Positions 6,622 to 53,163 of a stretch of 64,000 nt of DNA are shown here, piece after piece. How positions within the stretch are numbered: position 1 is the stretch's first letter; each line of letters opens with the position of its first letter. This DNA is from Rhodothermales bacterium (GTDB lineage: Bacteria; Bacteroidota; Rhodothermia; Rhodothermales; VXPQ01), in assembly GCA_951812345.1 (NCBI GenBank), contig OX638295.1:1832965-1896964 (forward strand). The letters run 5' to 3'. Both the position numbers and the translations under genes were made by a program. The notes beneath the pieces were generated by a model. The model did not search any database. It was not told the DNA's origin and worked only from the letters and a program-made list of their open reading frames with translations.

Positions 6622-6693
6622 AGGATGCTCTGACCATAACCTGTACTTGCGAACGTGACGCGCTGAGCGAAGCGGTTTTGGTCAGAGTGTCCT
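6622..6693 (+). repeat. Short deletion derivative of the dispersed repeat
   Basis: The 72-bp unit is bounded by AGGATGCTCTGACC and GGTCAGAGTGTCCT, nearly perfect terminal inverted repeats. It keeps the right-hand hairpin segment (TTGCGAACGTGACGCGCTGAG) but lacks the inner stem. TTA flanks the GGATG..GTGTCC core on both sides and could be a target duplication. It ends inside the stop codon of the minus-strand gene at 6693. Confidence 0.75.
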
Positions 6694-12532: not shown

Positions 12533-12788
12533 AGGATACTCTGATTAAGTCCGCAAAGATTCAGAGGCTGAAAGGGGTGCGCTGGCAAGGAATGACGAAG
12601 CAATGTGGCAGGCCCCACATAATGAGGAATGACACGGCCAGCGTGCCCCTGTCTGCCTCCCGAAGGGCGCTTCACGCTCGCAAGTACAGGATATTATGAT
12701 TTTATCATCGGAATCAGCGGAAAATATGCGAATTCGGGGCGTTGCGAACGTGAAGCGCTGAACGAAGTGGATTTGATCAGAGTATCCT
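12533..12788 (+). repeat. Full-length dispersed structured repeat (type 1 loop), reference copy
   Basis: A 256-bp element starts AGGATACTCTGATTAAGTCC and ends GATTTGATCAGAGTATCCT, giving terminal inverted repeats. Inside, arms at 12564-12586 and 12637-12659 pair at about 21 of 23 positions. They enclose a hairpin ATGTGG..CCACAT flanked by two direct copies of GGAATGAC. A second stem joins GCGCTTCACGCTCGCAA to TTGCGAACGTGAAGCGC. It has no transposase and too little coding capacity, so it resembles a MITE or ERIC-like palindrome. It ends six bases before RNase P RNA. Related copies lie at 19437, 23302, 23523, 40631, 53018 and, as derivatives, 6622 and 2452. Confidence 0.9.
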
Positions 12789-12794
12789 TAAATA

Positions 12795-13202
<408 letters not shown>

Positions 13203-13232
13203 TGCCGCCATACGCCAGGAAGGCTTACTCTC

Positions 13233-18514: not shown

Positions 18515-18689
18515 GGTCAGAAAAAGATCGGTGGAACAGAAAAAACGAATGGCGGAAAACCGGGGCCTGTTGACTGCACATCGTGCAAACAGGCTATGCA
18601 GGGGGTGCGCCAGTTCCGCGTAACGAAGTATAGCAGAATTTTTCGTCTTTCGCCATACGCTGCGCCCCGTCGCGCAATGTCATTCGGAA

Positions 18690-18735
18690 CATTGCGGACA
18701 TGAAGCGCCCTGCGGGAGGCTGTGAGAAGCAAGGC
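18690..18735 (-). repeat. Fragment of the dispersed repeat, reverse orientation
   Basis: Read on the minus strand, CTTCTCACAGCCTCCCGCAG then GGCGCTTCATGTCCGC closely matches the CTTCTCGCAGCCTCCCGAAG and GGCGCTTCA segment found in the complete copies at 23523 and 40631. Neither terminal inverted repeat is present, so this is a relic. Confidence 0.55.
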
Positions 18736-19410: not shown

Positions 19411-19436
19411 ACACTGACAAGGAAATTTCCGCGTAT

Positions 19437-19691
19437 GGATACTCTGATTAAGTCCGCAAAGATTCAGAGGCTGAAAGGGGGGCGCTGGCAAGGAATGACG
19501 AAGCAATGTGGTAGGCCCCACATAATGAGGAATGACACAGCCAGCGCGTCTCTGTCTGCCTCCCGAAGGGCGCTTCATGGCCGAGACAACCCGAATCCGC
19601 CGTGTTTTTCGCTGATTTCAACGATGCAAGCATGTCGTCCTTTACGCGTGAAAGTGAAGCGCTGATCGAAGTGGACTTGATCAGAGCATCC
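19437..19691 (+). repeat. Full-length dispersed repeat (type 2 loop)
   Basis: About 255 bp from GGATACTCTGATTAAGTCC to TTGATCAGAGCATCC. The left 150 bp are nearly identical to the copy at 12533. The loop of the right hairpin differs (GTGTTTTTCGCTGATTTCAA) and matches the type 2 loop of the copy at 23523. It separates divergent DUF2085 and groES, with its right end 41 bp upstream of the proposed groES promoter. Confidence 0.9.
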
Positions 19692-19731
19692 TTTATTAAC
19701 GCGAGTTTCATTCCCCCGCACCCTGCGCGCC

Positions 19732-19807: not shown

Positions 19808-20095
19808 ATGACCAGCATTACACCGATAGGCGACCGTGTGGTGGTGCAGCCGGAGGCTGCCGAGGAGAAGACCTCGAGCGGATTATTCATACCCGACACG
19901 GCGCAGGAGAAGCCCCAGCGGGGCACCGTCCTGTTCGTGGGTCCCGGCCAGGTCGAGAACGGCAAACATGTCGGGATGACCGTCAAGGCGGGCGACACCG
20001 TGCTCTACGGCAAGTATTCCGGGACGGAGATCACCCTCGACAACCAGGACGTACTCATCATGCGCGAGAGCGACATCCTCGGCGTCATCAGCTAA
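19808..20095 (+). CDS. groES: Co-chaperonin GroES
   Basis: 95 residues, the usual length. The N-terminus ITPIGDRVVVQPEAAEEKTSSG is the classic GroES opening, and the mobile loop (EKTSSGLFIPDTAQEKPQ) is present. The C-terminal roof and strand are seen in DQDVLIMRESDILGVI-type sequence (here NQDVLIMRESDILGVIS). It caps the GroEL cage during ATP-driven folding in the cytoplasm. It lies 90 bp upstream of groEL in the same direction, so they form an operon. Codon use is shifted toward GAG, AAG and GCG relative to neighbours, as expected for a highly expressed gene. Confidence 0.97.
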   Translation: MTSITPIGDRVVVQPEAAEEKTSSGLFIPDTAQEKPQRGTVLFVGPGQVENGKHVGMTVKAGDTVLYGKYSGTEITLDNQDVLIMRESDILGVIS

Positions 20096-21844
<1,749 letters not shown>

Positions 21845-21868
21845 GCCACGGCCCGCCAACTGTACCGC

Positions 21869-23301: not shown

Positions 23302-23816
23302 AGGATACTCTGATTAAGTCCGCGAAGTTCAGAGGCTTGCGAGGGGTGCGCTGGCAAGGAATGACGAAGCAATGTGGCAGGCCCCACATAATGAGGAATG
23401 ACACAACCAGCGTGCCCCTCTCTGCCTCCCGAAGGGCGCTTCACGTTCGCAAGTACAGGATATCATGATTTTATCATCGGAATCAGCGGGAAATATGCGA
23501 ATTCGGGGCGTTGCGAACGTGAAGGATACTCTGATTAAGTCCGCAAAGCTCAGAGGCTTGCGAGAAGTGGGCTGGCAAGGAATGACGAAGCAGTGTGGTA
23601 GGCCCCACACAATGAGGAATGACGCGGCCAGCGTGCTTCTCGCAGCCTCCCGAAGGGCGCTTCACATCCGCGATGCCCGAAACCTCAGTGTTTTTCGCAA
23701 ATTGCAACGAGGGAACCATGATGTCGTTTACGCACGAACGTGAAGCGCTGAGCGAAGCGGTTTTGGTCAGAATATCCTTAAAGCGCTGAACGAAGGGGTT
23801 TTGATCAGAGTATCCT
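23302..23816 (+). repeat. Full-length dispersed repeat (type 1 loop), interrupted by a second copy
   Basis: The outer element starts AGGATACTCTGATTAAGTCC at 23302 and closely follows the 12533 copy down to GCGAACGTGA at 23522. It then resumes at 23782 (AGCGCTGAACGAAGG) and ends GATCAGAGTATCCT at 23816. TATA flanks both sides of the GGATAC..GTATCC core, a possible target duplication. The interruption is a second complete copy. The element fills the gap between divergent glmM and ctaA. Confidence 0.88.
23523..23778 (+). repeat. Full-length dispersed repeat (type 2 loop), nested inside another copy
   Basis: A 256-bp element with ends AGGATACTCTGATT and GGTCAGAATATCCT. Its inner stem arms (23553-23576 and 23627-23649) pair almost perfectly but use GCGAGAAG/CTTCTCGC where the 12533 copy uses GAAAGGGG/CCCCTGTC. 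It splits the right hairpin of the older outer copy. Target-site duplication is unresolved, because TAA or AA could belong to either flank. Confidence 0.9.
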
Positions 23817-31833: not shown

Positions 31834-34092
31834 ATGACGTACCCTCCATTTCGCGTTTGCAGCTTCCGATCGATTCGCGCAGGGCGCCTTTGCGCCGGAC
31901 AGCGTACGCGCCATGCGGTTCTTCCTGCCTCCAGGATAGGCAAACACGTGCTTGTCGGGCTTTTATTGGCGGTTGCGCCATTCGTGCACGGAAGGAGTTT
32001 TGCTCAGCCGGTAAAGAGTTGGCCGCTTAGCAGTAGCGGTCCCGGACATAAGCATTGGGTCCTTTCGGTAGCCTTTTCGCCCGATGGAAGTATCGCGGCG
32101 TCCGCGTCCCGCGACGGAACCGTCAGGCTGTGGGATGTGGCTACGGCATCCCACGCCGCAACGCTATCGGGGCATGTGGATTGGGTTAATTCGGTTGCCT
32201 TTTCGCCCGATAGCAGCACCGTGGCGTCCGCGTCCCGCGACGGAACCGTCAGGCTGTGGGATGTGGCTACGGCATCCCACATCGCAACGATAGGACATAC
32301 GTCCGGGGTCCTTTCGGTAGCCTTTTCGCTCGATGGCAATATCGTGGCGTCCGGCTCCGATGACGGAATCGTCAGGCTGTGGGATGTGGCTACGGAATCC
32401 AACACCGCAACGCTATCGGGTCATGGGTCCTGGGTCAATTCGGTGGCCTTTTCGCCCGATAGCAGTACCGTGGCGTCCGCGTCCAGCGACGGAACCGTCA
32501 AGCTGTGGGATATAGCCACGGGATCCAACACCGCAACGTTCGCGGGGCATTCTCACTCGATCAGTTCGGTAGCCTTTTCGCCCGATGGCGCTACCGTGGC
32601 GTCCGCGTCCTATGACGCAACCGTCAGGCTGTGGGATGTGGTTACGGAAACCAACATCGCAACGCTCGTGGGGCACAGGGACCGGGTTAATTCGGTAGCC
32701 TTTTCGCCCGATAGCAGTACCGTGGCGTCCGCATCCAGCGACGGAACCGTCAGGCTGTGGAATCTGACGGGGTCCAACATCACCACGCTACCGGGGCATA
32801 CCGGGAGGATCAATGCAGTAGCCTTTTTGCCCGATGGCGCCGCCGTGGCGTCCGCGTCCGACGACAGAACCGTCAGGCTGTGGGATGTGGCTACGGGAAG
32901 TCTCGCCTCTACGTTTGGACCCGGAATCATACCCCTGGAGGTCGTTTATTCACCGGACGGACGTATGCTTGCCTCGGGATCCGATGACCATACCGTGAGG
33001 CTTTGGGATCCAGCTACGGGATCCAACACCGCAACGTTCTCGGGGCATGCCGGAAGCGTCAATTCGGTAGCCTTTTCGCCCGATGGCGCCGCCGTGGCGT
33101 CCGGGTCCTATGACAGAACCGTGAGGCTTTGGGATCCTGCTACGGGATCCAACACCGCAACGTTCTCGGGGCATACCGGAAGCGTCAATTCGGTAACCTT
33201 TTCGCCCGATGGCGCCGCCGTGGCGTCCGCGTCCAGCGATCATACTGTGAGGCTGTGGAATCCAGCTACGGGATCCAACACCGCAACGTTCTCGGGGCAT
33301 ACCGGAAGTGTCAATTCGGTAGCTTTTTCGCCCGATGGCAGTATCGTGGCGTCCGCGTCCGACGACAAAACCGTGAGGCTGTGGGATGCGGCTACGGGAG
33401 AGGGCGCCGCAACACTCTCGGGGCATACCGGGCGTGTCAATTCGGTAGCCTTTTCGCCCGATAGCAGCACCGTAGCGTCCGCATCCGACGACGGAACCGT
33501 GAGGCTATGGGATGTGGCTACCGGCGCCAACACCGCAACGCTCCTGGGGCATATTTTCTGGGTCAATTCGGTCGCCTTTTCGCCCGATGGCGCCGCCGTG
33601 GCGTCCGCGTCCGACGACGGAACCGTGAGGCTGTGGGATGTGGCTACCGGGGCCAACGCCGCAACGTTCCTGGGGCATGCCTGGTGGGTCAATTCGGTCG
33701 CCTTTTCGCCCGATGGAAACATGCTGGTGTCAGGAGCCTGGGATTGTTTCATTAATCTGTGGGACGTGTCGGGGATAATAACGCATGCGTTCGACGCCGA
33801 AGGGGAAGTTCCAGTGGCTTTCCGCCTGCACGGCAACTATCCCAACCCGTTCAATCCGTCCACGCGCGTGGTCTTCGACCTGCCGTCGGCAGCCGAAGTG
33901 ACGGTGCATGTCTTTGACATGTTGGGAAAGAACGTGATCGTCACAAGTCCCGTGTCCTTGTCGGGCGGGTGGGACCATTCGCTTGAAGTGAACGCATCCC
34001 CGTTACCCTCGGGCGCATACGTCTATCAGGTACGGGCGCAGACGGGTTCGGACATGCTTGTCCGGTCAGGGCGCATGATCCTCGCGAAATGA
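31834..34092 (+). CDS. Secreted 14-blade WD40 protein with T9SS-type C-terminal domain
   Basis: 752 residues. A signal peptide ends near AHGRSFAQ-type sequence (HVLVGLLLAVAPFVHGRSFAQ). From about residue 75 to 650 there are 14 WD40 repeats of 40-43 residues, each with VNSVAFSPDG, VASASDDGTVRLWD and GH landmarks, enough for two seven-bladed propellers. After residue 665 comes NYPNPFNPSTRVVFDLPSA, MLGKNV and a terminal SGRMILAK, the FlgD-like/type A sorting domain used for type IX secretion. Probable extracellular or surface interaction scaffold. A TAACTTTAG box at 31779 could be its -7 promoter element. Confidence 0.88.
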   Translation: MTYPPFRVCSFRSIRAGRLCAGQRTRHAVLPASRIGKHVLVGLLLAVAPFVHGRSFAQPVKSWPLSSSGPGHKHWVLSVAFSPDGSIAASASRDGTVRLWDVATASHAATLSGHVDWVNSVAFSPDSSTVASASRDGTVRLWDVATASHIATIGHTSGVLSVAFSLDGNIVASGSDDGIVRLWDVATESNTATLSGHGSWVNSVAFSPDSSTVASASSDGTVKLWDIATGSNTATFAGHSHSISSVAFSPDGATVASASYDATVRLWDVVTETNIATLVGHRDRVNSVAFSPDSSTVASASSDGTVRLWNLTGSNITTLPGHTGRINAVAFLPDGAAVASASDDRTVRLWDVATGSLASTFGPGIIPLEVVYSPDGRMLASGSDDHTVRLWDPATGSNTATFSGHAGSVNSVAFSPDGAAVASGSYDRTVRLWDPATGSNTATFSGHTGSVNSVTFSPDGAAVASASSDHTVRLWNPATGSNTATFSGHTGSVNSVAFSPDGSIVASASDDKTVRLWDAATGEGAATLSGHTGRVNSVAFSPDSSTVASASDDGTVRLWDVATGANTATLLGHIFWVNSVAFSPDGAAVASASDDGTVRLWDVATGANAATFLGHAWWVNSVAFSPDGNMLVSGAWDCFINLWDVSGIITHAFDAEGEVPVAFRLHGNYPNPFNPSTRVVFDLPSAAEVTVHVFDMLGKNVIVTSPVSLSGGWDHSLEVNASPLPSGAYVYQVRAQTGSDMLVRSGRMILAK
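32059..33775 (+). repeat. Tandem ~126-bp coding repeats (WD40 blades)
   Basis: About 14 head-to-tail units of roughly 120-129 bp. Landmarks such as TCGGTAGCCTTTTCGCCCGA and GAACCGTCAGGCTGTGGGAT recur almost unchanged at DNA level, including synonymous sites. Units around 32060-32770 resemble one another, as do those around 33000-33400, which points to recent duplication or gene conversion. This is coding DNA, not a CRISPR or intergenic satellite. Confidence 0.9.
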
Positions 34093-40630: not shown

Positions 40631-40821
40631 AGGATACTCTGATTAAATCCGCGAACTCAGAGGCTAAAGGGGGTGCGCTGGCAAGGAATGACGAAGCAGT
40701 GTATGTGGCGGCCCCGCACAATCAGGAATGACGCAGCCAGCGTGCTTCTCGCAGCCTCCCGAAGGGCGCGTCATGCACCAACGAGAAGTGCTGATCGAAG
40801 CGATTCTGCTCAGAGTATCCT
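40631..40821 (+). repeat. Dispersed repeat, shortened right hairpin
   Basis: A 191-bp copy starts AGGATACTCTGATTAAATCC and ends TCTGCTCAGAGTATCCT. The inner stem is complete; several positions pair GGGG with CTTC, which requires G-U pairs. The right hairpin has lost its loop (GCGCGTCATGCACCAACGAG then AAGTGCTGATCGAAG). The terminal inverted repeat extends to ACAGGATAC / GTATCCTGT. It fills the space between eboB and fic, and its right end encodes the last residues and stop of fic. Confidence 0.88.
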
Positions 40822-53017: not shown

Positions 53018-53163
53018 AGGATACTCTGATCAAAACCACTTCGCTCAGCGCTTCGCTTTCCTGCGTAAATGACGTTATAATTATGCGAAAAACGCTGCAA
53101 GATTCGGGCGTTGCGAGCGTGACGCGCCCTTCGGAAGGCTGCGAGGAGGCATCCCGGCATCCT
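53018..53163 (-). repeat. Dispersed repeat, reverse orientation, left part deleted
   Basis: It begins AGGATACTCTGATCAAAACC, the reverse complement of the right end of complete copies, followed by ACTTCGCTCAGCGCTTCGC. The type 2 loop (ATGCGAAAAACGCTGCAAGA) and the CGAGCGTGACGCGCCCTTCG arm follow. The inner stem is missing and the far end is a degenerate GGCATCCT. The right end points toward pstS. Apart from the repeat and the Pho box, the 437-bp gap 52814-53250 shows nothing I can name. Confidence 0.85.

Follow-up and report, generated by a model that had tools for sequence, protein, structure and literature searches.

How is the essential RNase P RNA transcribed when a folded repeat ends 4 bp before the Rfam-defined start of its gene (rnpB), and what kind of element is that repeat? 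The repeat in question, at 12533, lies in a window (the whole stretch of DNA analysed here, 64,000 nucleotides, G000:C1:1832965-1896964) of the single-contig, 2.82-Mb genome of a Rhodothermales bacterium (G000), in which an initial annotation had noted a dense family of structured repeats resembling a MITE or an ERIC-like palindrome. We conclude that the repeat is a non-coding MITE, belonging to a new family of a well-known kind, and we are highly confident that the best explanation is a MITE which has its ends in common with a now-broken IS5-family transposon and was probably mobilised by the transposase of that transposon. Copies in the window were called with a profile built from 82 full-length copies, and are listed here together with the parts of the 12533 copy and its neighbour:

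2454 to about 2475, minus strand: solo right-end fragment
6622-6693, plus strand: internal-deletion derivative, 72 bp, with a longer copy at the same place in G003
12533-12788, plus strand: full-length MITE with inverted loop, 256 bp; the element proper is 12534-12787 (GGATAC..GTATCC)
12534-12555, plus strand: left terminal inverted repeat of the 12533 copy, compared with IS ends
12667-12676, plus strand: left arm of the right hairpin (GCGCTTCACG)
12677-12748, minus strand: hairpin loop, inverted relative to the family majority
12749-12758, plus strand: right arm of the right hairpin (CGTGAAGCGC)
12767-12787, plus strand: right terminal inverted repeat of the 12533 copy, compared with IS ends
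12793-13208, plus strand: RNase P RNA (rnpB), a neighbour outside the MITE; Rfam match, 254 bits
18682-18732, minus strand: internal MITE fragment, 51 bp
19436-19692, plus strand: full-length MITE with forward loop, 257 bp
23302-23522, plus strand: left portion of a host copy with inverted loop, split by the next copy
23523-23778, plus strand: full-length forward-loop MITE nested in the 23302 copy, 256 bp
23779-23816, plus strand: right remainder of the 23302 host copy
40631-40821, plus strand: short-class MITE, 191 bp
53018-53148, minus strand: truncated MITE copy, model positions 113-256

The dense family proved real, with the end motif GGATACTCTGAT occurring 18 times in the window at up to two mismatches, far above shuffled sequence (mean 2.9, maximum 8), and with all the copies previously listed being present. 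Among the five described as complete, those at 12533, 19436 and 23523 are full length, while the 40631 copy belongs to a class of about 190 bp and the 23302 copy is no separate complete neighbour, being instead the host into which the 23523-23778 copy inserted, so that the two form a nested pair. The common ends hold with 0-2 mismatches, the right end being one off in 19436 and 40631 and two off in 23523, and the supposed deletion derivatives are indeed present as fragments (6622-6693, 18682-18732 on the minus strand and 2454 to about 2475), as is the minus-strand 53018-53148 copy.

Beyond the window, the 20-bp MITE end was found at 191 places in G000 (up to two mismatches; 0 for the backward control), and every one of the six genomes of the host genus carries the family, against 0 of 54 others from the order, answering the concern that copies might be confined to the window. 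Exact matches to the end among named genomes were found in the Rhodothermales MAGs OX638293.1, JANQSQ01 and JAJDWX01, and on one contig labelled Latescibacterota (L070), which carries the MITE end without a full copy and may be misbinned; viral contigs, plasmids and phages gave no match. Full-length copies measure 254-258 bp, and a second, short class of about 190 bp has likewise been amplified. Contiguous samples of 344 kb from G000 (18 loci, 6 full length) and 380 kb from G003 (39 loci, 19 full length) extrapolate to about 150 and 275 loci per genome, respectively. Placement is intergenic, with 1 of 77 unique full-length copies inside an ORF, no preferred gene-pair context distinguishable from background and no significant orientation bias relative to transcription (25 antisense, 16 sense), these numbers being approximate because ORFs were called greedily by length. 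No Rfam covariance model matched the repeat, and no named family was found in Rfam, in plasmid and phage collections or in the literature, in agreement with the earlier failure to recognise one. Our literature search, covering open-licence papers, returned no published description of the family, nor any paper for the combined subjects of Rhodothermales, sponge and transposable.

The element is short and non-coding and bears terminal inverted repeats with paired ends of about 20 bp, its outer part forming a terminal stem of about 22 pairs. The left inner stem-loop (AGAGGCTG..) carries direct copies of GGAATGAC and a GTGTGG/CCACAC tip, and the arms of the right hairpin are GCGCTTCACG/CGTGAAGCGC; the inner stem, direct copies and right hairpin described previously are thus all present. 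The two alternative loop sequences reported alongside them are a single loop in opposite orientations, forward in 83 copies and inverted in four (12533, 23302, G000:410961 and one in G003). Because these four share the rest of their sequence, we attribute them to one inversion between the hairpin arms that subsequently spread; on the basis of this common backbone we reject active loop flipping, and what had been taken as diversification by alternative loops is really one loop inversion.

Comparison of genomes within the genus revealed filled and empty sites in both directions. The 12533 site is empty in G004 and G005, the 19436 site lacks the element in G003 and G004, the 23302 site is empty in G003, and the 40631 site is empty in G004 and holds a decayed remnant in G003. 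In the cleanest pair, at L035:7247 of G003, the filled site reads CATCCGGTGCA[GG..CC]TGCAGGTATT, with a perfect TGCA duplication, and the matching site of G000 is empty (CATCCGTTGCAGGTATT). With element boundaries set at GGATAC..GTATCC, perfect 4-bp flank repeats surround 18 of 78 copies, against 5.0 expected and a maximum of 12 in 2000 shuffles; lengths of 3, 5 and 6 bp showed no excess in the same 78 copies, and a 2-bp signal reflects the core of the 4-bp repeat. TTAA (7) and TATA (3) are the commonest of the 18 perfect duplications, TGCA and others also occurring; IS5 itself uses the 4-bp target YTAR. Most copies therefore have an imperfect duplication, among them 12533, flanked by CGAA on the left and TTAA on the right, and to the right of both 12533 and the nested 23523 copy the flank differs from the sequence of the uninterrupted site. 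The MITE reading is thus borne out by insertion polymorphism, the 4-bp target duplication, intergenic placement and ends held in common with IS5-family elements of the genome and the order, and it suffices without the ERIC-like alternative. Since copies are near-identical (up to 99%) and insertions are species-specific, the family has been active since the species of the genus split; to this extent it is rightly called live, although a search of the six genus genomes gave no matching transposase that is intact.

The statement that no transposase is present is true of the window, but the genome does contain IS5-family transposase remnants. A Pfam DDE_Tnp_1 search of G000 returned three broken genes, and a protein search added a fourth remnant, an N-terminal fragment. 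These fragments (L164, L165, L166 and L173) have GGATACTCTGATTTAA-type left and TTGATCAGAGTATCC right ends that match the MITE: L166 has GGATACTCTGATTTAATCC on the left and CCGGATTGATCAGAGTATCC on the right, L164 and L165 have a MITE-type right end, and L173 has the left end GGACACTCTGATTAATACC. They score 142.9 bits against the NCBIfam IS5 model NF033581 (cut-off 140) and also match PF01609 and PF05598. When 394 genomes of the phylum were searched, the closest relative proved to be in G029, which belongs to the same order: its intact frame of 329 aa shows 68% identity in the C-terminal part, and the end TTGATCAGACATTCC follows the gene on its 3' side; a second end was looked for there and not found. 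The sequence GGAATATCTGATCAA lies near a transposase fragment in G309, and all aligned MITE and IS ends share GGA...TCTGAT..A. Comparing the MITE ends with insertion sequences of the same genome, as had been proposed, led to broken IS5-family copies, and the broken element is the likely mobiliser of the MITE, judging from these shared ends. Like IS5-family insertion sequences, the MITE has terminal repeats and a 4-bp target duplication; unlike them, it has no transposase gene, and its similarity to the IS copies found extends over the terminal ~15-19 bp only, with none seen in the interior, so that it is not a simple internal deletion of those copies.

In the mechanism that we propose, the transposase would recognise the ~15-19 bp ends (GGATACTCTGATTAAG.. 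and, opposite, ..TTGATCAGAGTATCC) and mobilise the 254-bp unit, which would insert into AT-rich gene gaps with duplication of 4 bp (TTAA and similar); the inner hairpins might be kept because folding takes place in the transcript of the element, or in its DNA while single-stranded in transposition or replication. An intact transposase with MITE ends was found in none of the six genus genomes, an absence that falls short of proof because four of the six are draft assemblies, and the missing partner may reflect either draft genomes or real loss. Other candidate partners were rejected: PF13358 (IS630 DDE_3) has no match in G000, PF01797 (RAYT) has none in G000 or the six genus genomes, and the other IS5-like genes of G001-G003 (L175-L180) lack MITE ends. 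L175 (G003) and L178 (G002) mark a separate IS5-like element with inverted repeats TAGGGCGTGTTAACACTAA, whose ends are unrelated to the MITE.

The closest known parallel is RUP of pneumococcus, a non-coding intergenic repeat of 107 bp in ~100 copies, with IS630-Spn1 ends and a TA target (PMC2229807). Our family likewise is non-coding and intergenic, has its ends in common with an IS of the same genome and duplicates its target, but it differs in length (254 bp), in its IS5-type ends and 4-bp duplication, and in that PF13358 is absent from the genome; it works like RUP with a different partner. Bacterial MITEs are described in reviews as 100-200 bp long with stable transcript folds, and RUP with IS630-Spn1 is named as the case of a recognised partner (PMC2229807, PMC10969869); according to the 2007 review, no bacterial repeat apart from RUP had yielded IS-like ends or been examined for them (PMC2229807). 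ERIC and Correia/NEMIS are likewise palindromic MITEs of intergenic regions, and their transcripts form long stem-loops (PMC2229807, PMC10969869); going by their descriptions, they are set apart by size, ends and hosts, and by the partner IS recognised here. Chunjie (Geobacter) and QMITE2 (Coxiella) similarly combine full-length copies of ~190-235 bp with many truncated derivatives (PMC10969869), though their hosts are unrelated and this comparison too is by description. With its recognisable partner transposon, its many filled/empty pairs between congeners and its strong covariation, this bacterial MITE family can serve to ask why the interior of a MITE remains folded and what becomes of a MITE after its transposase breaks down.

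The fold itself is pronounced. The 12533 copy has a minimum free energy of -121.5 kcal/mol (z -9.7), and in the consensus structure over 40 copies 98% of cells pair. Across these 40 copies, two-sided changes occur in 17 of 58 pairs, with 51 double-change cells against 11.7±2.6 in shuffles and 3-9 with slid partners, counts that are inflated by relatedness of the copies; under parsimony, on a tree of the unpaired columns, the main pairs changed in several independent steps. Given the size and repetition of the compensatory changes, the fold seems to be maintained despite this inflation, even in inner stems, which lie outside the terminal sequences presumably required by a transposase; the amount of internal folding preserved by paired mutations is unusual.

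Within the MITE explanation, one can ask whether the fold is maintained at the level of RNA or of DNA; here the evidence leans to RNA. The plus strand folds better in 68 of 82 copies, by a mean of 8.1 kcal/mol, and G-T cells outnumber A-C cells (374 vs 68). Most of that excess comes from five columns fixed as G-T, the remainder being 85 G-T vs 68 A-C. It is quite possible, if short of probable, that the compensatory changes in the MITE arose by correction of the DNA palindrome, that is, by template switching between the arms, rather than by RNA selection, the loop inversion being a product of the same process. An inversion between hairpin arms did occur, and the derived G-T and A-C cells are nearly equal, both of which suit such correction; the five fixed G-T columns, set against no fixed A-C column, lean instead to RNA.

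We regard it as rather unlikely that the copies are primarily structured functional RNAs or mRNA processing elements (for example for RNase III processing or mRNA insulation), retained for the activity of their transcript and only secondarily mobile. Such a role would accord with the z of -9.7, with compensatory changes of several independent steps per pair and with the strand and G-T asymmetries, but the part of the G-T excess outside the five columns is almost symmetric, copies have neither a significant orientation to transcription nor a preferred gene context, insertions are species-specific and Rfam holds no match. Two copies bear further on this role, those in the gaps of cmk-rpsA (L126:1021-1209, G000:C1:1733985) and gltB-gltD (L129:6849-7103, G000:C1:1799813), genes recognised by reading ORFs. 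Both are 98-99% identical between the two species G000 and G003, while 100-bp bins in the 500 bp flanking them vary widely, mostly 85-99%, which, with n=2, hints at constraint. G000, G003 and G005 share the gltB-gltD copy, which is missing from G004, G001 and G002. A doubtful further proposition is that selection keeps the MITE interior folding as RNA on one strand, shielding both the element and its host operon as a self-insulating hairpin; if true, the host would be tolerating an RNA function in a transposable element, and some copies, in the core operons gltB-gltD and cmk-rpsA or before rnpB, would be domesticated.

REP-type palindromes moved by a RAYT (Y1) transposase would also be palindromic, intergenic and numerous, but this origin is very improbable given the long terminal repeats, the 4-bp duplication and a Y1_Tnp match in 0 of 6 genus genomes compared with 5 of 14 control genomes. 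Least credible of all is assembly artefact or contamination: several draft contigs do start or stop inside MITE copies, yet the same family recurs in genomes that were assembled independently of one another, two of them (G000 and G003) as single contigs, and the filled and empty sites are clean.

Returning to rnpB, the position of the MITE 4 bp before the gene means that the region expected to hold the rnpB promoter is displaced by 256 bp in G000. This region is displaced in G003 too, by a different MITE copy, and not in G004 or G005. The G000 copy at this site has the inverted loop and is 98% like a paralogue elsewhere in G000, and the G003 copy at the same place has the forward loop; conversion of one old insertion and two insertions at one site both fit.

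Several other features of the genome were observed. The groEL region of the window (19808-21848) shares 99% identity with a second copy at G000:C1:273499-275539 but only 93% with either G003 copy, a pattern resembling concerted evolution of the duplicates. A 752-aa protein with ~14 WD40 repeats (126-bp DNA repeats) is encoded at 31834-34092 and is missing at the matching place of G003 and G004. At L012, a 1037-bp end pair was rejected as a partner of the MITE, there being no recognisable transposase inside; three adjoining copies of a different small palindrome (TTATTCAACGCAAAAAATGCGTTGAATAAT-like) at L012:2300-2480 possibly represent another repeat family in G000.
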